Part shown: positions 20,321-63,956 of the stretch, one piece after another | Position numbering within the stretch: position 1 is the first letter of the stretch | Layout: the number at the start of each line of letters is the position of its first letter | Origin: Chitinophaga pinensis | Lineage (GTDB): Bacteria; Bacteroidota; Bacteroidia; NS11-12g; UBA955 | DNA: 64,000 nt | Reading direction: 5' to 3' | Assembly: GCA_945871905.1 (NCBI GenBank) | Contig: CAMBXL010000001.1 | Location: 124,001-188,000, forward strand | Program-made: the position numbers and the translations under genes | The notes under the pieces: model-generated | The model's database searches: none | The model's input: the letters and a program-made list of their open reading frames with translations, nothing else | What the model was told of the DNA's origin: nothing

Positions 20321-20350
20321 AAAAAAATCTCCTTTTGAGGAGATTTTTTT
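20321..20350. terminator. Bidirectional terminator after the sigma factor gene
   Basis: A 12-bp perfect stem (AAAAAAATCTCC / GGAGATTTTTTT) around a TTTTGA loop, with T-runs on both strands. It lies 9 bases past the rpoD stop and upstream of the membrane-protein gene promoter. Confidence 0.9.
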
Positions 20351-42381: not shown

Positions 42382-42410
42382 AAAAAAGCCTCACATTGTG
42401 AGGCTTTTTT
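42382..42410. terminator. Bidirectional terminator between convergent genes
   Basis: A 13-bp perfect stem (AAAAAAGCCTCAC / GTGAGGCTTTTTT) with an ATT loop, between the lipoprotein gene and trxA. The A- and T-runs allow it to work on both strands. Confidence 0.93.
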
Positions 42411-51601: not shown

Positions 51602-51771
51602 TAAATGGTATTAAGTCTGTAAAGGTAATAATTTGTATTAATTATTATGAAAATTATTATTCAATGTTAATCATAGTATTCAATTCAATGTTGAATTATA
51701 ATTAAGTAAACAATATGGTAAAATTAATTTAAAATAGGTTTAATGTTATTAATAGATTGTTAAATAATCAA

Positions 51772-52745: not shown

Positions 52746-54110
52746 TTACTTCAACGTAGAATCAAGTTTTCGTCCTAAAAATTGATTAAACCATTGAGCG
52801 CTTTCTTTCAATGTTCTTTTTTTGGTTACAAAGTCCACATGTATCAATCCAAATCGAGGTTCATAGCCTTCGGCCCATTCAAAATTATCAATAAGTGACC
52901 ATGTAAAATAGCCTTTAATATCAACTCCCTCATCCTTGGCATTTAATACTTCTTGAAGGTGCGATTGGTAAAATATAATTCGCTGGTAATCTTGTATGCC
53001 ATTATTTCCTATCACATCATTAAGGGCAATGCCATTCTCAGTAATATATAAGGGAGTATTTAATTGGTATTGACTCAGTTTTATTAATGTGTGATAAATA
53101 CTTGGCGGGTGTATTTCCCAATTCATCATGGTCAACTCTTTGGTTCTTTTGCTTGCAGGAATATGTTTAATGGGGAGTAATGGATTCAAAAAATTATATT
53201 TAAACAATTCTCTGGTATAATTTTGTACGCCAATAAAATCAAGTGGTGTTTTTAATAAATATTCGTCTTTTTTGAGGTAGTTTTTTTGAGATTTGCTAAA
53301 TAATTTGATATTTTCTATAGGGTATCCTTTGCCAATAATGGGCTCAAAAAACAATCTGTTAATCAATGTATCAGCAAGCTTAGCTGCTTTTTTGTTTTGA
53401 GGTTTGGAGTCTGTACTTTCAATGTGTGTGAATGAAAAAGAAGAACCTACGTTAAGGTCAGGATTGATGTTTTTTAATGAATAATAAGTTTTGTTAATAC
53501 ATAAGTTAGCGTGATGTAATGCCTTAATGAATGGAGTAACGCCTTTTCTACCTGGGGCATGAATTCCAAAGAAATAGCCGGCACCAACAAAAACTGAAGG
53601 CTCATTTAAAAGTATCCAATTTTTTACATTTGGTAAGTATTGAATGCAGGTTTTGGAATAATGGTCGAACCAATTCACGATTTCAGGATTGGTCCATCCG
53701 CCTTTTTTTTCGAGTGCCAATGGTAAGTCCCAATGGTATAAGGTTATCCAAGGTGTTATGTCATTTTTTAAACAATAAGCGACGATAGATTGGTAGAATT
53801 CAAAACCTTCAAGATTGATATTTTCGCCGTCGGGCATTACACGAGCCCAAGCAATGCTAAATCTAAAATGCTTGAACCCTATGAATTTTAAATGATCAAT
53901 ATCTTTTTTGTAGTGATTGTAAAAATCAGCAGAATTTTTTAAGTGTTCGCTGTTTTTTATAGGGTGCTTTTTGAAAAATCGGGATGGACGATTGCAAAAC
54001 TCATCCCAAATAGAAGGTCCTTTTCCTCCTGAGTCAGTAGCAGATTCTGTTTGCGCTGCCGAAATAGAGGCGCCCCAAATGAATGATTCACCAAATCTGT
54101 CAACCTTCAA
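52746..54110 (-). CDS. Glycoside hydrolase family 1 beta-glucosidase
   Basis: 454 residues of a GH1 retaining glycosidase. The acid/base is Glu170 in WILLNEPSV, and the nucleophile is Glu358 in LYITENGIAL. FIWGASISAAQTES near the N-terminus and the late YFTWSLIDNFEWAEGY are standard family stretches. There is no signal peptide, so it acts in the cytoplasm on imported beta-glucosides. The start is a TTG overlapping the LpxH-like stop (TTGA), and no ATG lies before the conserved N-terminus. The overlap implies coupled translation. Linkage preference is not known. Confidence 0.9.
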   Translation of the reverse strand: MKVDRFGESFIWGASISAAQTESATDSGGKGPSIWDEFCNRPSRFFKKHPIKNSEHLKNSADFYNHYKKDIDHLKFIGFKHFRFSIAWARVMPDGENINLEGFEFYQSIVAYCLKNDITPWITLYHWDLPLALEKKGGWTNPEIVNWFDHYSKTCIQYLPNVKNWILLNEPSVFVGAGYFFGIHAPGRKGVTPFIKALHHANLCINKTYYSLKNINPDLNVGSSFSFTHIESTDSKPQNKKAAKLADTLINRLFFEPIIGKGYPIENIKLFSKSQKNYLKKDEYLLKTPLDFIGVQNYTRELFKYNFLNPLLPIKHIPASKRTKELTMMNWEIHPPSIYHTLIKLSQYQLNTPLYITENGIALNDVIGNNGIQDYQRIIFYQSHLQEVLNAKDEGVDIKGYFTWSLIDNFEWAEGYEPRFGLIHVDFVTKKRTLKESAQWFNQFLGRKLDSTLK

Positions 54111-54934
54111 TTTTTTTGTATGTTAAATTCTCTCAATAATTCAGTTATTCCAATTTCTTCATCGTCAGTTTCATCCATTTGCTGATTGTCTGTGTGTTGA
54201 TATAAAGTCCAGTCATTGTTATGAAACTCCAATGAAGTTAAGTTCTCTACCCAATCGCCGCTGTTTAAATATTGAATGTTTTTTCCCTCAATCTCTAAAT
54301 TTTTGATACTTGGTTGATGAATGTGACCGCAAACCACTGTTTCACACTTTTGTGAAATGCCGTAATTAACAGAGGCGGTTTCAAAATCGTTGATAAATGA
54401 AATGGCAGATTTAACGCTGTTTTTGATTTGTTTGGATAATGATAAACGTTTGCCTCCAAATTTCTCTGAACAAAAATTAACGAATGTGTTTAGCAGAATT
54501 AGTAAATCATAACATTTTCCACCAAGTTTTGCTAACCATTTGGCGTGTTGAATACTGAAGTCGAATACATCACCATGAAAAAACAAGGTTTTCTTTCCAT
54601 TAATATCCATCATTACCTTGTTCACTAATTTGATATTGCCAAAATTCATGTCAGCGAATTTTCTTAGTAATTCATCGTGATTGCCTGTAATATAGTATAT
54701 ATCAGTACCTCTGTTCGATAATTTTAAGATATAACGTACCACTTTCATGTGGCTTTTTGGAAAATATTTTTTAGAGAATTGCCAAATGTCTACAATATCT
54801 CCATTTAGAATCAGTGTTTTAGGGTCAATGCTTTTAAGATAGTTTAAGAGTTCTTTCGCCCTGCAACCGTATGTGCCCAAATGAACATCGGAAATAACGA
54901 CCAAATCAACTGCTCTTTTGTCTTGATTTATCAT
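54107..54934 (-). CDS. UDP-2,3-diacylglucosamine diphosphatase-like metallophosphoesterase
   Basis: Calcineurin-like phosphoesterase of the LpxH group, which removes UMP from UDP-2,3-diacylglucosamine in lipid A synthesis. The 275 residues contain all five metal motifs: SDVHLG, NGDIVDIWQ, GNHDE, FHGDVFDF and GHIHQP. The ATG at 54934 is preferred over a TTG 12 bases upstream. It overlaps the GH1 gene by 4 bases. Lipid A and glucoside use are not obviously connected, so the coupling may reflect operon convenience. Membership in the LpxH2 type is likely but not certain. Confidence 0.88.
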   Translation of the reverse strand: MINQDKRAVDLVVISDVHLGTYGCRAKELLNYLKSIDPKTLILNGDIVDIWQFSKKYFPKSHMKVVRYILKLSNRGTDIYYITGNHDELLRKFADMNFGNIKLVNKVMMDINGKKTLFFHGDVFDFSIQHAKWLAKLGGKCYDLLILLNTFVNFCSEKFGGKRLSLSKQIKNSVKSAISFINDFETASVNYGISQKCETVVCGHIHQPSIKNLEIEGKNIQYLNSGDWVENLTSLEFHNNDWTLYQHTDNQQMDETDDEEIGITELLREFNIQKN

Positions 54935-55202
54935 TTTTTGAGACAATGACTAATGGATTTTAAAAACAAATTAGACATTAATGAAAAAATAAAATCTATT
55001 ATTCTGCTATTCATGCTACAAAATTCGCTGTTGCATGTAAAAAGAAAATGAAATGTATGTTACTAAAATATATTAGTTAACACGTGTCTTGTTTTTAGGA
55101 TTTTAGATTGTAGAATTAAGATTTTAGAAAGAAGATTTAAGTGTTTAAAAGAAAGATGTTGAAAAGAGGTTTGTCTAATAATAGTTATGGAAATAGGAAA
55201 AA

Positions 55203-56030: not shown

Positions 56031-57959
56031 CTAGTATTCCCCGCCCACTTTCCTGTCGTTTAACTTTGAGTTGTTGATTTTCGGTAATCTTGATGGTTTA
56101 GAGGTTAAGTTGGCACTATCTGTCAGGCTTTCCATAAAGGCTATGATTTGTTTGATTTCTTTTTTAGTCAACTCCAGTTTGTCGGTTCCTAAGGTTTGAT
56201 ATTCTAATTGGATACCAACTCCTGCACCACCACCATTGTTGTAAAAATTCATCACCTCATCTAAGGTTTGATAGGCGCCATTGTGCATATATGGTTTTGA
56301 AATAATAATGTTTCTTACCGTTGGTGTTTTAAATGAGTAATCATAAAAAGGAACTTGTTCTTTAAGCAATGCACCACCTCTGCCTTTGTCTTTGCCTAAT
56401 ACTTGCTTTTTTTGATGTGGGTTTTCTGATACACCCAATACTTCCGATTCCGATTCTGAATAAAAAGGTGGTACATTGCCGTTAAAAATAGGGGCAAAGT
56501 GACAAGTGCCACAAGCGGCTTTTCCCATAAATAAGTTAAAGCCTTCCACAATCGTATTTTCAGATTGACTTAATTTGTTGGGTGTATTCAGCATCAATTG
56601 GTCAAATTTAGAATTCAGCCCAATAATGGAACTTACATACACACTCATGGCAAATTGAGTATTTTGAATGGAAATAGCATGATTAGTATCCAATTGAAAG
56701 GCTTTGCTATAAAGGGTTTTATATTCAGAACTTTGGTTGATTTTATCTAAAATATCGTTCCAATTGGTGTTAAACTCCGAGCCATTCGTAATCACATGTT
56801 CCATTTGGTCTGTGAGGTCATGCGCTCTTAAATCATGAAAATAGCGGTCACTATAAATGCAATTGATAAGGGTAGGGGAATTCCTGTTTAAATGACCTTC
56901 ATAATTATAAGCCAAACTTTTAGCCAAATGGTCGGTGAACCCTTTTTCGGGATTATGGCAACTGGCGCATGAGCGTTGATTGTTGGCCGATAAAATAGGG
57001 TCAAAGAATAACAATTGCCCTAATGTTTTGGCATTATCGTTAATGAATTTTTTTGGTACATTGATATAATAATCTGAATTTAAAAAATCAGAGGCAAACA
57101 AATTATTAGACAAATAATTAAATGCTTGCGGTTTGTTATTTATTTCAGAGGGTAGTTCTAATTCTGATGCTAAATGGGCTTTAAGCAGTTGGCCGTAAAG
57201 AGGATTAATCACTTGGGTCAAAAACGCATAGCGATTGAATGTTTCAAAATTGTTGTTTTGTTTTAAATAGTTTATGCCTTTATTAAGGGTTTCAAAAATA
57301 GAATCACTCAATAATTTATTTTTGAGCTCAATTTCAGGTTGTAATAAGCTTAAATCGGATTGCATGGTTTCAAATACACTCAAAGCATCTTGAATGCCAT
57401 TGCCAGAACCGGGTGTGTCAAAACCTGTTAAACCCAAAGTAGCGATTCTGATTAATTCAATTCTTGCGGCAATGAAAATGTCTCTAGAATAAATTTCAGG
57501 TAAAGTCAATTGGTTCAATTGTTTGGTCATGTAATCCAATTGGATATGCATTTCTTTTGTTAAGTGTTCAGCGGAATCATCAAAGAGTAATTCATCTAGA
57601 ACTTGTAGGCCTTTAGGTTCTAATACATTTGCGCCAAAACTGTTTTGTTCCAACTTAGGCAAAGGAGCGCCATTGATGTTTTCTTTAATAAATATAGCAT
57701 TATAGTGTTCAGCTAAATATTCCCATGATTTGTAAGATTTTCTTAAACTAAAGTAACTCGATTTTAAAGCTTCAAAACTCAATGTTTTTTGTTCAAACTT
57801 GGATACTTTCCCATTGAATTCATTAACACTCGTTTTGAAATTCTCAAATCTTTTCATGTCATTTTTTTTAATGATTTCAATGGATGAATCACTGTTTTTA
57901 AAAGCAGAAATACTTATAATGATGATAAAGAGTGAAGTTATAGTATATAATTTATTCAT
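56031..57959 (-). CDS. Di-haem cytochrome c peroxidase-like protein with N-terminal extension
   Basis: 642 residues with a signal anchor (about 1-20). The C-terminal part (about 300-630) is a cytochrome c peroxidase/MauG-type domain. The two haem sites are CASCH (331-335) and CGTCH (483-487), with FTDH and YMHNGAYQTLDEVMNFYN as further family stretches. Residues 30-290 form an all-helical extension containing NGAPLPKLEQNSFGANVLEP, not needed for peroxidase activity in the shorter family members; I do not recognise its family. The protein should work in the periplasm on hydrogen peroxide or a partner protein. A hairpin separates it from the upstream PhoX-like gene. Confidence 0.85.
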   Translation of the reverse strand: MNKLYTITSLFIIIISISAFKNSDSSIEIIKKNDMKRFENFKTSVNEFNGKVSKFEQKTLSFEALKSSYFSLRKSYKSWEYLAEHYNAIFIKENINGAPLPKLEQNSFGANVLEPKGLQVLDELLFDDSAEHLTKEMHIQLDYMTKQLNQLTLPEIYSRDIFIAARIELIRIATLGLTGFDTPGSGNGIQDALSVFETMQSDLSLLQPEIELKNKLLSDSIFETLNKGINYLKQNNNFETFNRYAFLTQVINPLYGQLLKAHLASELELPSEINNKPQAFNYLSNNLFASDFLNSDYYINVPKKFINDNAKTLGQLLFFDPILSANNQRSCASCHNPEKGFTDHLAKSLAYNYEGHLNRNSPTLINCIYSDRYFHDLRAHDLTDQMEHVITNGSEFNTNWNDILDKINQSSEYKTLYSKAFQLDTNHAISIQNTQFAMSVYVSSIIGLNSKFDQLMLNTPNKLSQSENTIVEGFNLFMGKAACGTCHFAPIFNGNVPPFYSESESEVLGVSENPHQKKQVLGKDKGRGGALLKEQVPFYDYSFKTPTVRNIIISKPYMHNGAYQTLDEVMNFYNNGGGAGVGIQLEYQTLGTDKLELTKKEIKQIIAFMESLTDSANLTSKPSRLPKINNSKLNDRKVGGEY

Positions 57960-57982: not shown

Positions 57983-58014
57983 AAAAGAACCGACACTTTC
58001 GTATCGGTTCTTTT
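57983..58014 (-). terminator. Terminator after the PhoX-like gene
   Basis: The stem AAAAGAACCGA / TCGGTTCTTTT is closed by an inner AC/GT pair with one mismatch and a TTTC loop. It ends in a T-run on the reverse strand. Confidence 0.75.
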
Positions 58015-58041
58015 AATGTTTGTTTATGTTTTGAGATAAGG

Positions 58042-59901
58042 TTATTCAACAATGAATTTTTGAGTCATTCCTTCAGCATTTCTGATGAAATAAACACCAG
58101 ATGCTAATTCTTCAATGTTAATTAAATTAACACCTCTTGCTACTATTACTCTTTGTCCTTGAGCATTGTAGATAGCAACATCAGTTGTTTGGTTGAAATT
58201 TAATTCTCTAGAAGCAGGATTAGGATATACAGTAAACACATTGCTTTCTTCTTTTAAAGTATTGATAATTGAAGTTTTATTTACTTTAAAACCAGAGATA
58301 GCATAGGTTAATGAGTTGTTGTAAGGGAAAGTGTTAGAAGTGCTTGGGTGCTGAGCGTTAAATAACATTGTATTTTCGTCAATTGCAACTCCACCAGTTA
58401 CTTCACCACCTGGAGGGCAAGCAGTAATTCTAATCAAATTATTAAATGTTGGGTTAGGAATACTTAAGTCTAATAAATAAGTTTCACATACAATAGAAAT
58501 ATTTGATGGCATTCTGTTCCAGTTTGTACCATTTAAATCTTCTTGAATTATTAAGTATTCTTTTCCATCAATGTTGATATTGTGAATTCCATCAGGGTTA
58601 GAGAAATGGATTGGAGGGTAAGCAAATCTGTTTTGAGAAGTAAGAGCTGGAGCTAAAGGTCCACCTTCAATGTATGAACGTACTAGATTTGTAGCTGGGT
58701 CGAATTCTAAAACTCTACCATAATAGTCGTTAAATTTACCTGCTCTTACTGAGTCAGCTGCTTGAGCATCAGTTCCAGTAAAGCTTGAACCTTTCAATAC
58801 TCTGAATCTTGATTTATAACCATCAATTAAACCTTGGCTAACTACACCATATCTAGCATTGCCAGAGTTGAATGTAAATGCATCTCTACCAGTCTCTGTG
58901 ATATAAATTTTACCATTAGCTACAGTACCCCATTCTAATCTGTTGAACATAGAAGCACCTCTTCTTACAGCTACTGCATTTAAATCAACCAAAGTATCCA
59001 AATTATTTTCAATAGCAATCCATTTTGTTGGAGCATCTTGCTTGTATACAAACAATTGACCAGTTGTGAAATCATTAGCGGTAGTAGCAACAAATTTAGC
59101 TAAAATGCCCGGAGATCCATCTTCGAATAAATAAACAGTTTTGTTGTCATTCATTACAACACCACCTTCCCAACCAGCTCTACCCCAGTTGTATTGTTTT
59201 CTTACAGCTTTTGCATTATTTGGATCAATTTCTACCATCCAATTTAAGTTTTGGAATTTTTTCAAAACTTTACCATTGAATCCTGGAAAACCAGCAGGTG
59301 TAGTAGTTCCAATAGTGAAATTTGCAGTATCTTTAATACCGCTACCATTGTTAAATATACCACGGTTGCTTGTTTGCATCCACTCTTCAGCAGTCCAGAT
59401 TCTACCATTTGGCGCATTGATACCACCGCAGTTCATCCCTGTTTCACCAACAGTATTAACGAAATCTACGTTAAAGAATTTACCTTTTCTGCCATCAGTT
59501 AAAGTTTGGTCAACAACTTCTAGTTGGTCGTTACTACCTCTTTTCAGTTTGAACATGGTCATTCCGCCACCATCACCAATTTTAGCATCACTAGTAACCA
59601 TTTCGTGGTTAATAATAACATTTCCTAAAATACCATTAGAATTAGCAGGCGCTTTAGAAAAACCGATAAAATCGTGCCATTGTTTAGCAACTGACTTACC
59701 AGCCGCATTGCCATAAGTGCTTGTAGTTTGAACCGTATCAACTCCACCAACAAACAAAACTTGTTGTTTTAGAGGAGATCTTGGCATCCATACCGTTTTT
59801 ACAGACCATGAAGTGTCAATGTTCATTGGAAACGGTGTTTGAGCATTTGCTGCAAAAGCAGACAAACCCAAAGCGATAAAAGTAAAAATTTTCTTTTTCA
59901 T
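58042..59901 (-). CDS. PhoX-like (DUF839) secreted phosphatase with T9SS sorting domain
   Basis: 619 residues. A signal peptide (about 1-20, ending ANAQ) is followed by a PhoX-like beta-propeller: VIINHEMVTSDAKIGDGGGM, MNCGGINAPNGRIWTAEEW (equivalent to the PhoX metal-binding stretch), WGRAGWEGGVVMNDNKTVYL and GKIYITETGRDAF. PhoX enzymes are calcium/iron phosphomonoesterases, but active-site ligands were not checked one by one. The last 75 residues (VYPNPASRELNFNQ and LASGVYFIRNAEGMTQKFIV) are a type A T9SS signal. Its role is probably phosphate release outside the cell. A perfect inverted repeat overlaps its predicted promoter. Confidence 0.85.
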   Translation of the reverse strand: MKKKIFTFIALGLSAFAANAQTPFPMNIDTSWSVKTVWMPRSPLKQQVLFVGGVDTVQTTSTYGNAAGKSVAKQWHDFIGFSKAPANSNGILGNVIINHEMVTSDAKIGDGGGMTMFKLKRGSNDQLEVVDQTLTDGRKGKFFNVDFVNTVGETGMNCGGINAPNGRIWTAEEWMQTSNRGIFNNGSGIKDTANFTIGTTTPAGFPGFNGKVLKKFQNLNWMVEIDPNNAKAVRKQYNWGRAGWEGGVVMNDNKTVYLFEDGSPGILAKFVATTANDFTTGQLFVYKQDAPTKWIAIENNLDTLVDLNAVAVRRGASMFNRLEWGTVANGKIYITETGRDAFTFNSGNARYGVVSQGLIDGYKSRFRVLKGSSFTGTDAQAADSVRAGKFNDYYGRVLEFDPATNLVRSYIEGGPLAPALTSQNRFAYPPIHFSNPDGIHNINIDGKEYLIIQEDLNGTNWNRMPSNISIVCETYLLDLSIPNPTFNNLIRITACPPGGEVTGGVAIDENTMLFNAQHPSTSNTFPYNNSLTYAISGFKVNKTSIINTLKEESNVFTVYPNPASRELNFNQTTDVAIYNAQGQRVIVARGVNLINIEELASGVYFIRNAEGMTQKFIVE

Positions 59902-59912
59902 TTTAATTAATT

Positions 59913-59940
59913 ATTGTTGATGCAAAACTGCATCAACAAT
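59913..59940. promoter_or_regulatory. 28-base perfect inverted repeat at the PhoX-like gene promoter
   Basis: Arms ATTGTTGATGCA (59913-59924) and TGCATCAACAAT (59929-59940) around AAAC, 11 bases upstream of the ATG. On the reverse strand its centre holds a -7-like CAGTTTTG. It could be an operator or a 5' UTR hairpin. Confidence 0.75.
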
Positions 59941-60133
59941 GTTACCATTAGTTTGTTTTCAAATGAAAAGATTGAAAATTTAGTGTTAAAATTACAAGAT
60001 TTTAATGTGTTTTTTAAATAAAAACAACAGCTTGTGCAAATGGAGTTTGTAGTATTTGGAGATTTAAACGTTTGTCTACTAACAATATATTTAAAGGTAA
60101 TATAGAAAGGCTGTATTAATAAAATGTTTAATT

Positions 60134-61750
60134 TTACTCTTTTGCAATTTTTATTCTCGCAATGTTATTCCCTAAAGTATAACTTAAGGTGTAAATACCG
60201 GATTTAAGCATCCCGATATTGTTGATTAATATTGCATTATTTTCAATGTCATAATAGTTCGATAACACCAATTTACCATCTGAAGAATACATTTGAATTA
60301 AACTCGAGGTTTCTTCTGAATTTGCTATTAGGATGTTAATATGGTCTTTGCAAGGATTGGGAAAAGCAATATTATTTTTGTTTTTTTCAATTGATGTGAT
60401 AGTTGTATTTTTATCTTGGTATATTCTTATGTAATCAATTTCTAAAGTACTTTGAGTAAATGTTTGGCTTATGTTAGGAAGAATAGCAATATTTATAAGC
60501 AAGTATTGTTCTAAGTCAAAAGGCCAAGTGCTGTTGTTTTTTAACACAGGTTCATAAGTATAATGAACGACTGAATCAACGCTGAATTCGATTTTATCTG
60601 GAGTCCACTCCATCGAATACAAATGAAACGAATTAGAAGCATTTGGAATTGTTTGTCCCCCTAAATTGACGGTATTGCCAAAACTAGATGGGGAATGGAT
60701 AGCACTTTGAACAAAATTTTGATTTTGCCCCCAATGTTCTAGAATATCTATTTCGCCGCATGCCGGCCAAGGCGTGTTACCATAACCTAAGTTTTGCCAA
60801 TAAGCCCCTCTTTCATCAATGTTTTTTCCTAATGTCCATACAGCAGGCCACGTTCCAACGCCAAAAGGAAGTTTTGCACTAAACTCTACTCTGCCATATT
60901 TAAAGGCAAATTTTGAATTAAGCCTAGCGGAGGTGTATTGTTTGGTTTGGCCTTGGTCTGTGAAGTTTTCTTTCTTTGCTATCACCTTCAAAAGGCCATT
61001 TTCAACAATAGAATTACTTGTTCTGTTTGTATAATGCTGGATTTCACCGTTATACCAACTGCCGGATGTAGGAAGCTGAGTTTGATGATGCCAATTGTTA
61101 TCATTGATATGTCCGTTCGTGTTAAATTCATCAGCCCATACAAGTTTTGTGTATAGAGATTTAGTTGGAGGAGTAGCCAAGTATTCAAAGTTATCAAGAT
61201 AGGCAAGTACGCTGTCTCTGTTATTTTCTCCATTAATTTGAAATACAACTCTATTGAAATCTTTTCTTTGGATTGGAGGCAATGATCCTGCATTTAAGTT
61301 TCTGTATGCGTCTTTGGCAAAATCAAATGTGATTGTTTGCCATTCGTCTGTAAGTATAGTTTTTATTATTTCCGATTGGGTTGACCAAGGTTCGTTGATT
61401 TTACCATCTTGAAGTTTTAAAGAAACTTGATTGATTTGATTGCCGGAGATTTTGTTAGAAGGGACAAATATTTTTAGTGAAAAGACACTTCCTTTGGTAA
61501 GATCAAAATTTCTATCATTTTCAAATCTGACATTGGCGTATAATCCCCCTTTGTCTGAATATTCCAAAACCTTTGAAGAGTTGTTTTGGGGAGTGTTATT
61601 CGGATTTTGTATTCCGAGTTTAATGAAACAATCATCGCCTTTCCAAGAATTAATATTCCCATTCCCTTCAAAATCGTCTTTTAAGATTTGTGAGTTAGAA
61701 ATAAAGGGAAAAATCATTCCAATAAAACAAAAGGTAAATTTTTTAAACAT
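60134..61750 (-). CDS. Secreted GH16 beta-glucanase with T9SS sorting domain
   Basis: 538 residues. A signal peptide ends near residue 20 (ISNSQ). Residues 22-195 form a carbohydrate-binding-like beta-sandwich (LKDDFEGNGNINSWKGDDCF; AYLDNFEY). The GH16 catalytic domain (about 200-455) has the nucleophile Glu333 and acid/base Glu338 in GEIDILEHWG, plus RLNSKFAFKYGRVEFSAKLP. ILEHWG with GTWPAVWTL fits laminarinase/lichenase-type enzymes more than agarases or carrageenases. The C-terminus (AFPNPCKDHINILI; LKSGIYTLSYTLGNNIARI) is a T9SS type A domain. The divergent neighbour encodes a related module protein. Confidence 0.9.
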   Translation of the reverse strand: MFKKFTFCFIGMIFPFISNSQILKDDFEGNGNINSWKGDDCFIKLGIQNPNNTPQNNSSKVLEYSDKGGLYANVRFENDRNFDLTKGSVFSLKIFVPSNKISGNQINQVSLKLQDGKINEPWSTQSEIIKTILTDEWQTITFDFAKDAYRNLNAGSLPPIQRKDFNRVVFQINGENNRDSVLAYLDNFEYLATPPTKSLYTKLVWADEFNTNGHINDNNWHHQTQLPTSGSWYNGEIQHYTNRTSNSIVENGLLKVIAKKENFTDQGQTKQYTSARLNSKFAFKYGRVEFSAKLPFGVGTWPAVWTLGKNIDERGAYWQNLGYGNTPWPACGEIDILEHWGQNQNFVQSAIHSPSSFGNTVNLGGQTIPNASNSFHLYSMEWTPDKIEFSVDSVVHYTYEPVLKNNSTWPFDLEQYLLINIAILPNISQTFTQSTLEIDYIRIYQDKNTTITSIEKNKNNIAFPNPCKDHINILIANSEETSSLIQMYSSDGKLVLSNYYDIENNAILINNIGMLKSGIYTLSYTLGNNIARIKIAKE

Positions 61751-62078
61751 GGTTGGTTTTTTAAAATAAAGACTATTTTGGCAAATGTAATTCTTTTTAA
61801 AAATATTTCATTAAACTGTTAATGTATAAAATTCTAAACCCATTTAATTATTTATTTTTTACATAAAAATAAACGCGATTTTCAATAAAAATGGGGAGTT
61901 TTTTGTATTTTATTAATAATTCCCAGTGTTAATTTAAAAATAACTACTGTAAGTTTGTTTGTAATTATTTAATATGTAGCGGGTTAAATATTGTAGTAGT
62001 AGTGATGTAGTGTCAATATTTGTTAATTCAATGTTAAAAAATTTAATTTGTTTTCGGTTTTAATTAAAAATAGATAAA
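61751..62078. other. Divergent promoter region between GH16 and the module protein
   Basis: 328 very AT-rich bases. A GH16 -7 box lies at 61782-61789 (reverse). No clear -7 box was found for the module gene and no inverted repeat was seen. Confidence 0.5.
61782..61789 (-). promoter_or_regulatory. Predicted -7 box of the GH16 gene (TACATTTG)
   Basis: Exact reverse-strand TAnnTTTG match, 31 bases before the ATG at 61750. Confidence 0.5.
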
Positions 62079-63956
62079 ATGAAAAAAAATTACAAATTTA
62101 AAATGTTTAAAGTCAGTTTGATGTATCAAATTGCTTTCTTAACACTGCTTTTTTCAAGCATTGGTTTACACGCTCAAAAAAATCCAATTGATTTTGAAAC
62201 AGGCGGTAATGGCGCAACTTGGACGTGGACTGTCTTTGAAAACAGTTCAAACCCAGCTGTTGAAATTGTTACTAACCCGAATCAATCGGGGATTAATACA
62301 TCTTCTAAAGTTATGAAATTTAAAGCTTTACAAGCTGGAAATCCTTGGGCAGGTTGTGAATCAAAGCATGGTTCAACAGATTTAGATACTTTTTCTTGGA
62401 ATTCAAATAACCGTATCATTAAGATTATGGTATGGAAATCTGAAATTAGTGATGTAGCAATCAAAATTGCTTCAAGCACAAATTGGTCGGAGACAGAAGT
62501 TAAAATTCCTAATACAAAAATTAATGAATGGGAAGAATTGACTTTTGATTTTACTAATAAAATTAATCCTCCTTCAGGAAATGGTGTTTTAGACCAAATT
62601 ATTATTTTCCCTGATTTTCAAACAAGAACTAGCGATAATATCTGCTATATAGACAATATTACATTTAATGCAGGAACAGCATCTGAACCAACTACGGCTG
62701 CCCCAACACCTACACAAGCATCTGCTGATGTAATTTCAATGTTTAGTAATGCTTATACTAACAAAACGGTTAATACATGGAGAACTGATTGGTCGGCAGC
62801 AACTCTTTCTGATGTTAAAGTAGCAGGCAATGATACCAAAAAATACTCTTCATTGGATTATGTAGGAATTGAAACTGTTGGAGCAAATGTGATCGACATT
62901 AAGGATATGCTATACTTCCATATTGATGTTTGGACTCCCAATGTTAATTCTATGAGTGTGAAAATTGTTGATTTTGGTGCTGATGGTAATTTTGGTGGAG
63001 GAGATGATAAAGAACATCAAGTTACTTTAACTCCTACAAAAAACGGTTGGAATAGTTTTGATGTGCCTATGTCTGATTTTACTGGATTAACTTCTAAACA
63101 ACATATTGCACAATTAATTTTTAGTTGTACTCCTGCCGGTCAAGGAACTTTATATTTGGATAATATTTTTTATCACAAATCGCCAATTATCGACCCTAAT
63201 ACTCCACAGGAGGCTGCTCCAACACCAGTATTTGTGGGAACGGATGTGATTTCATTGTTTAGTAATGCTTACACCAATAAAACGGTTAATACTTGGCGCA
63301 CAGATTGGTCTCAAGCAACTTTATCTGATTTGCAAATCAAAGGTAATGATACTAAGAAATATACTTCATTAAATTTTTCAGGAATTGAAACTGTTGGTGC
63401 AAACGTTATTGATGCTTCTAGCATGGATAGATTTTATTTCAATGCTTGGACGCCTAATTTAACTTCACTTAAAGTGAAATTAGTTGATTTTGGTGCTGAT
63501 GGCGCATTTGGTGGAAGTGATGATAAAGAACATGAACTTACATTGACTGCTCCAACCTTAAACAGTTGGAATACATACGATTTGCCTTTGTCTAGTTTTA
63601 CTGGATTGACAACCAAAGCACACATTGCTCAATTGATCTTAGTAGGAACTCCATCAAATGCTGGAACTGTATTTATTGACAACGTTTTGTATAGAAAAGA
63701 AGCACTTTCTGTGTCTAATACTACTTTAAATACTATCAATGTTTATCCAAACCCAGCGACAGAACAAGTTACTTTATCTTCAACTAATACAATTGCTTCA
63801 GTTGAATTATTCAATAGCCTAGGTCAAAAAGTTTTAAACTTAAATTCTGATTCAAATATCGTGACAATCGATATTGCTAATCTTAACAAAGGTATATATA
63901 CTATAAAAACAAACACCGACAATGGACAATCTGTTTCTAAACTGATTGTAGAGTAG
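62079..63956 (+). CDS. T9SS-secreted protein with carbohydrate-binding-like modules
   Basis: 625 residues. An N-terminal signal peptide (to about residue 33, ending LHAQ) follows a basic start. Module 1 (about 35-205) is a beta-sandwich with NPIDFETGGNGATWTW and ICYIDNITF. Modules 2 and 3 (about 214-370 and 386-540) are near copies of each other, each with DVISxFSNAYTNKTVNTWR, VDFGADG.FGG.DDKEH, TGLT and YLDN/FIDN strands. Such modules accompany GH16 laminarinases in Bacteroidota, and the GH16 gene is adjacent. No catalytic domain is visible, so it probably binds polysaccharide. The end (VYPNPATEQVTLSS; LNKGIYTIKTNTDNGQ) is a T9SS type A domain. Confidence 0.85.
   Translation: MKKNYKFKMFKVSLMYQIAFLTLLFSSIGLHAQKNPIDFETGGNGATWTWTVFENSSNPAVEIVTNPNQSGINTSSKVMKFKALQAGNPWAGCESKHGSTDLDTFSWNSNNRIIKIMVWKSEISDVAIKIASSTNWSETEVKIPNTKINEWEELTFDFTNKINPPSGNGVLDQIIIFPDFQTRTSDNICYIDNITFNAGTASEPTTAAPTPTQASADVISMFSNAYTNKTVNTWRTDWSAATLSDVKVAGNDTKKYSSLDYVGIETVGANVIDIKDMLYFHIDVWTPNVNSMSVKIVDFGADGNFGGGDDKEHQVTLTPTKNGWNSFDVPMSDFTGLTSKQHIAQLIFSCTPAGQGTLYLDNIFYHKSPIIDPNTPQEAAPTPVFVGTDVISLFSNAYTNKTVNTWRTDWSQATLSDLQIKGNDTKKYTSLNFSGIETVGANVIDASSMDRFYFNAWTPNLTSLKVKLVDFGADGAFGGSDDKEHELTLTAPTLNSWNTYDLPLSSFTGLTTKAHIAQLILVGTPSNAGTVFIDNVLYRKEALSVSNTTLNTINVYPNPATEQVTLSSTNTIASVELFNSLGQKVLNLNSDSNIVTIDIANLNKGIYTIKTNTDNGQSVSKLIVE

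Follow-up and report, generated by a model that had tools for sequence, protein, structure and literature searches.

A TAACA direct-repeat array and a probably accidental palindrome at the promoter of a phoX-like gene

Phosphate promoters and the phoX-mauG pair

The PHO box of PhoB and PhoP regulators is described as two direct repeat units of 11 nt, with CTGTCAT in E. coli and GTTCACC in Streptomyces coelicolor, and with a consensus that varies between species (PMC4415409). For the Bacteroidota, PhoB of Bacteroides fragilis has been found to bind the pst promoter in a gel shift with a 512-bp fragment (PMC3547664), and the word 'consensus' is absent from the available text of that paper. In this case, a Bacteroidota PhoB acts directly on a phosphate promoter and, by analogy, a similar action may be proposed for the promoter described here. 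No published DNA consensus for a PHO box in Bacteroidota was found in the open-access literature searched, a coverage outside which most subscription papers and preprints lie.

Among the genes that respond to phosphate in this phylum, a PhoX-like and a MauG-like gene of Flavobacterium johnsoniae (Fjoh_2478 and Fjoh_2477; PMC8115612, PMC8812569) rise on Pi depletion, with values of 12.50 and 9.58, respectively, in the DE column of PMC8115612. The two genes are described as forming a phoX-mauG operon in all Flavobacterium genomes, and inducible phosphatase activity is reported to be lower in a phoX mutant (PMC8812569). In the accessible parts of PMC8115612 and PMC8812569, no promoter element was found for this pair.

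The same two genes, in the same order, are present in the window, by which we mean the whole 64-kb stretch of DNA that was analysed. The phoX-like gene (58042-59901, minus strand) encodes a protein of 619 aa with a T9SS sorting tail, and a gene for a MauG-like di-haem peroxidase, its conserved partner, lies downstream (56031-57959, minus strand). As in F. johnsoniae, the PhoX-like protein has no Pfam match of its own; in effect, neither Pfam nor NCBIfam, including PF05787, gives a PhoX call for the window protein. The F. johnsoniae product, in contrast, is annotated as a lipoprotein, whereas that of the window carries the T9SS tail. An ortholog that is 51% identical to the window protein (L055) matches the PF05787 PhoX profile at 3e-30. 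When the predicted model of the window protein (mean pLDDT 76) was compared with the PDB, PhoX of P. fluorescens ranked first (4a9v; E 4.2e-16, TM-score about 0.5), with the next match at E 2.5e-7. The model points to a PhoX fold, in agreement with the original prediction of a PhoX-like gene, and the phosphatase function is a predicted one.

In 26 of the 27 ortholog loci, there is a MauG relative directly downstream of phoX, and the remaining locus (L053) ends within phoX. Between the phoX stop codon and mauG there is a hairpin with 11-bp arms and TTTT at its end (window 57983-58014), and hairpins are found at about the same place after phoX in three ortholog loci (L060, L062, and L064). This hairpin may be a leaky terminator, with mauG expressed by read-through. 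The distribution of phoX itself is patchy, with a full-length match in 2 of the 17 genomes of the genus, namely the window genome and that of the nearest ortholog, and with matches at E 1e-30 or better in 9 of the 70 genomes of the family. The genome of the nearest ortholog, whose protein is 88% identical, is called G008 hereafter; L003 and L032 are the same locus and were counted once.

Core promoter and TAACA array

A -7 box, CAGTTTTG, is found upstream of phoX at 59923-59930 on the minus strand, recognized from its sequence and the consensus TAnnTTTG (PMC9723704), from which it differs by one mismatch. The original prediction had correctly placed such a box, on the gene strand, at the centre of the inverted repeat that is discussed below. 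Because TAnnTTTG is located at -12 to -5 from mapped starts in Flavobacterium psychrophilum (PMC9723704), transcription is predicted to begin near 59918 (minus strand), which is 17 bases before the ATG. Within the putative PHO box, the unit with the highest conservation is a TAACA at 59940-59944 (minus strand), at -18 from the TTTG, which is kept in G008. A second TAACA (59984-59988, minus strand), at -62, is located 44 bp further upstream (4 x 11) and reads TAACC in G008. The array of the window is thin, with these two in-register TAACA only.

A comparable layout is observed in the orthologs. In most of their promoters, a TTTG box lies roughly 20-35 bases ahead of the ATG, in many cases with a CATCAA-like sequence after it, and TAACA repeats are found upstream of this box. 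Pairs of TAACA exactly 22 bp apart occur in 11 of 31 distinct upstream sequences (three duplicates, L061-L063, removed); in 300 shuffles, such pairs occurred in 0.07 sequences on average and in no more than 2. The register of the repeats was set by the distance to the last TTTG ahead of the gene, a rule that is blind to TAACA, in 28 ortholog promoters that included those of the window and G008 (L042, L054, and L060-L063 left out). By this count, 37 of the 41 TAACA fall in one 11-bp register, and 21 of 25 do so when near relatives are removed (L003, L040, L043, L047, L048, and L057 also left out). At least one TAACA in register is present in 18 of the 28 promoters, and none in 10. In one of the promoter comparisons, L042, with its short upstream sequence, and L060, which has no TTTG anchor, were left out along with the three duplicates; L052 is devoid of upstream sequence and was never used for promoters.

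Two characteristics of a PHO box were looked for. Direct repeats in 11-bp units were found across the ortholog promoters, and array-like sites were found before several unrelated phosphate genes (those for PstS, a PHO4 transporter, and a Porin_O_P protein), in a scan that was not blind. The array resembles the PhoB/PhoP PHO box in its 11-bp direct repeats, in its position just upstream of the core promoter, and in its occurrence before phosphate-acquisition genes. It differs in its TAACA core, in often having 2-4 scattered in-phase copies (22, 33, or 44 bp apart), in its fixed distance to the Bacteroidota -7 box TAnnTTTG, and in that its binding protein is putative. The PhoP box of Bacillus subtilis is made of TTAACA-like repeats; its core and 11-bp phasing look like those of the array, although it belongs to a different phylum and a different core promoter.

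Array-like promoters at other genes

As a means of finding a regulon, the rigid exact pattern failed in the window genome and in the family. TAACA-17-TAACA-13-TTTG with up to 2 mismatches is not enriched in the window genome (109 matches versus 114 for the reversed control), and the exact pattern occurs 6 times in 69 family genomes versus 11 times for the reversed control. Four of these 6 exact matches were examined; one is before pstS, two are before a gene that by eye looks nucleotidyltransferase-like, and one is within a gene. In nine genomes that were chosen via ortholog loci, there are 47 matches with at most 1 mismatch versus 33 for the control. The 12 exact matches in these nine genomes comprise 8 before phoX, 2 before TonB receptors, 1 within a gene, and 1 before a channel-like gene (named by eye).

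The array was also searched for with two models, R1 and R2, whose rows were picked with the identity of the genes known and were therefore not blind; in the window genome, each scan took 150 first-look candidates, out of about 2500, to scoring. R1, a model of sequence only, was built from 16 phoX-ortholog promoters, without the window genome and G008, and was run on ten genomes. In the window genome, its best match lies within a gene, and the window promoter is second (E 0.022), a match that is homologous to the model and hence not independent. The third match is before the gene of a choice-of-anchor I protein, and the fourth is before that of a PHO4-family phosphate transporter (pit; E 0.095). 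The best match in G008 is before the same PHO4 transporter (E 2e-4), while the two best in G026 are before a Porin_O_P protein and before a PBP_like_2 protein that we interpret as PstS. In other genomes, R1 matches are found before TonB receptors and before lipoproteins that lack a Pfam family. By description alone, these lipoproteins resemble the phosphate-starvation lipoproteins of F. johnsoniae (PMC8115612). Of the 23 R1 sites examined, 5 are within genes, 2 are not followed by a gene within 260 bases, and 16 precede genes, including 2 (L188 and L193) before a gene with no evident link to phosphate. In 17 collected promoters, 46 of the 56 TAA[CT][AG] words are in register, a count that is partly circular; for words outside the stretch scored by the model, this is the case for 11 of 18.

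Some of these loci deserve separate mention. The choice-of-anchor I protein (L177, G000:C6:122893) is large, with a weak 5'-nucleotidase tail that scores below cut-off and an array-like promoter, and it is possible that this product is an extracellular phosphatase of the PHO regulon. One genome without phoX (G016) has array-like sites before transporter and lipoprotein genes.

R2 drew on 11 promoters of genes other than phoX, taken from genomes other than that of the window, with L189 left out for its forced gap and the G008 rows left out on purpose, and yielded 12 matches with E of 1 or less in the window genome. Nine of them were examined in context, of which 3 are within genes; a tenth, at window 51707-51756, was placed only, and the genes on both sides of it are on the opposite strand; the other two are at C1:1242 and C4:45513. 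The best match (E 1.7e-4) falls in a divergent TonB-receptor region (L219, G000:C13:26301-26499), where two array-like promoters stand back to back between a 106-aa ORF and a TonB receptor that resembles PHO-type receptors. Further matches precede the PHO4 transporter (E 0.0145) and the choice-of-anchor protein (E 0.265), and the phoX promoter of the window is 8th of the 12 (E 0.445). R2 also matches at 55014-55071 (minus strand; E 0.44), a second candidate PHO promoter in the window, which is located before a metallophosphoesterase gene (54107-54946, minus strand). The product of this gene belongs to PF12850 and is LpxH-like by NCBIfam, below cut-off. The TAACA/TTTTG element at 55014-55071 is nearly the same in G008 (L226), and in F. 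johnsoniae, the genes that respond to phosphate include that of another PF12850 member, PlcP (PMC8115612).

With respect to the protein that would bind the array, several OmpR/PhoB-like regulators are encoded in the genomes searched, and none of the PhoB-like proteins of four genomes scores above the curated PhoB cut-off. A candidate PhoB-type regulator is encoded at G000:C12:14361-15023. PhoU (TIGR02135) was rejected as a marker of the pst operon, as it has no match in 8 genomes (G000, G008, G031, G057, and G070-G073), with 13 of 14 controls matching. In G026, a genome outside this search, pstS is present. The sensing of phosphate could differ in these genomes.

It could be that the array is real but is bound by a regulator other than PhoB, or that it is a general upstream element of Bacteroidota. 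PhoB binding is something that we infer here, and this reading can call on the scores of the OmpR/PhoB-like proteins below the curated cut-off, as well as on the two R1 sites whose gene shows no evident phosphate link. Nevertheless, the arrays stand before phosphate genes of unrelated families, their 11-nt units have the geometry of a PHO box (PMC4415409), and a general element should enrich the rigid pattern, for which no enrichment was observed. We regard another regulator or a general element as unlikely. Instead, the site at 59913-59940 is, in our judgement, quite likely the promoter of a phosphate-starvation operon, phoX-mauG, with PhoB-type activation through a TAACA PHO box, in which the palindrome is incidental. 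A PhoB-type response regulator would bind the TAACA repeats, which are arranged head to tail at multiples of 11 bp, and once bound would recruit RNA polymerase to TAnnTTTG, with transcription starting near 59918. In this way, low phosphate would lead to the activation of phoX-mauG. Points against this reading are the unenriched rigid pattern, the thin array of the window, the ortholog promoters devoid of an in-register TAACA, the low rank of the window promoter with R2, the R1 sites within genes, and the scores of the PhoB-like proteins. The link to the phosphate state that had been suggested for this promoter is supported, but through the direct-repeat array.

The palindrome over the core promoter

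The inverted repeat, ATTGTTGATGCA-AAAC-TGCATCAACAAT, occupies 59913-59940, with all 12 arm positions paired around a 4-nt loop (12 + 4 + 12), and is assigned to no strand. Eleven bases separate it from the ATG of the phoX-like gene on the minus strand. The original prediction was exact as to this perfect 28-base repeat and its place just upstream of the start codon, and had read it as an operator that could block transcription. With arms of at least 12 and loops of 0-12, there are three inverted repeats across the 64-kb window, including this one. At window 42382-42410 and 20321-20350, there are perfect inverted repeats with arms of 14 and 13 and with A-run/T-run flanks, which are terminator-like. 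An arm of at least 12 is present in 8 of 60 dinucleotide shuffles of the window, with a mean of 0.15 per shuffle. A repeat with 12-bp arms is uncommon, yet it is not extraordinary within 64 kb.

With a start near 59918, the palindrome would cover about -22 to +6. The TTTG/CATCAA region of the -7 box and start (TTTTGCATCAA), which is conserved because it is the core promoter, makes up the right arm, and the left arm corresponds to the variable spacer that separates the -7 box from the last repeat. The last TAACA overlaps the palindrome by a single base, at 59940.

Conservation in orthologous promoters had been named beforehand as a test that could refute an operator. In G008, the 19 bases directly upstream of the palindrome are identical to those of the window, while 4 of the 12 positions differ in the left arm and 1 of 12 in the right arm. 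Consequently, 8 of the 12 pairs remain, four are broken, and none is compensated. This is the highest pairing among 27 orthologs (G008 included and the window excluded; the duplicates L061-L063, L042, L060, and L054, whose right arm is cut, were left out). At the equivalent positions, these orthologs have a mean of 3.74 of 12 pairs versus 3.67 when the arms are swapped between orthologs. The palindrome is not conserved, and its two half-sites are not kept together in the orthologous promoters compared, which is the result that had been named as refuting. Further genomic sites were not found either: a second copy of the palindrome is absent from the genome, even when as many as 3 of the 22 specified bases are allowed to differ, although an operator with a single target would likewise give one genomic copy only. 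The half-site, for which a search had been proposed, is at chance level in the window, with 3 matches at no more than 1 mismatch, two of which are the arms themselves, versus 3.2 expected.

These observations bear on the idea that a dimeric repressor binds the palindrome over the -7 box and the start and blocks transcription, perhaps as a recent gain of the lineage. Perfect 12-bp arms that are centred on the -7 box, and the limited number of shuffled windows that hold an equally long arm anywhere, would fit such an operator. It is, however, quite improbable in view of the uncompensated breaks in the nearest ortholog, the chance pairing in the others, the single genomic site, and the unenriched half-site, as well as the core promoter that explains the conservation of the right arm. 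It is also hard to credit that the palindrome is a newly gained, species-private control element over an old PHO promoter. According to this proposal, the conserved core TTTTGCATCAA would have been copied inverted into the spacer, perhaps by one template switch, giving a repressor site or hairpin-prone DNA at the melting point that would now set the basal level.

It is highly improbable that the repeat acts as a 5'-leader hairpin that sets the stability or translation of the phoX mRNA. The RNA fold predicted for the repeat is stable (-15.6 kcal/mol, z -4.06; none of 200 shuffles equally stable) and would end shortly before the ATG. The predicted start at 59918, however, lies in the right arm, of which only the last six bases would be transcribed, and therefore the fold could not form except in a transcript that starts further upstream. 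Compensatory changes are also lacking in G008. Finally, a terminator, which had been judged unlikely from the outset, can be dismissed, as the repeat has no T-run and a terminator scan of 58000-62200 gave none.

As far as these sequences indicate, the palindrome is probably accidental, and the spacer of the left arm would have become complementary to the right arm by drift or by one template-switch mutation. In the last 60 bases before the ATG, 4 of 12 left-arm positions are changed between the window and G008 versus 3 of 48 elsewhere (Fisher p 0.025). This excess of change fits one template switch, although it is suggestive only, as there is no closer outgroup to polarise the change; a chance product and a template switch cannot be told apart from these sequences.

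PHO boxes are already known as a kind of element, and the palindrome as a functional feature is not supported. The TAACA array in 11-base steps, for its part, looks like the phosphate-starvation switch of this bacterial group. Given its fixed 11-bp register relative to TAnnTTTG, such an array would make it possible to identify parts of the phosphate regulon in these genomes from their sequence. In addition, this case shows that a striking perfect palindrome can be incidental, while the adjoining degenerate direct repeat is the conserved signal.
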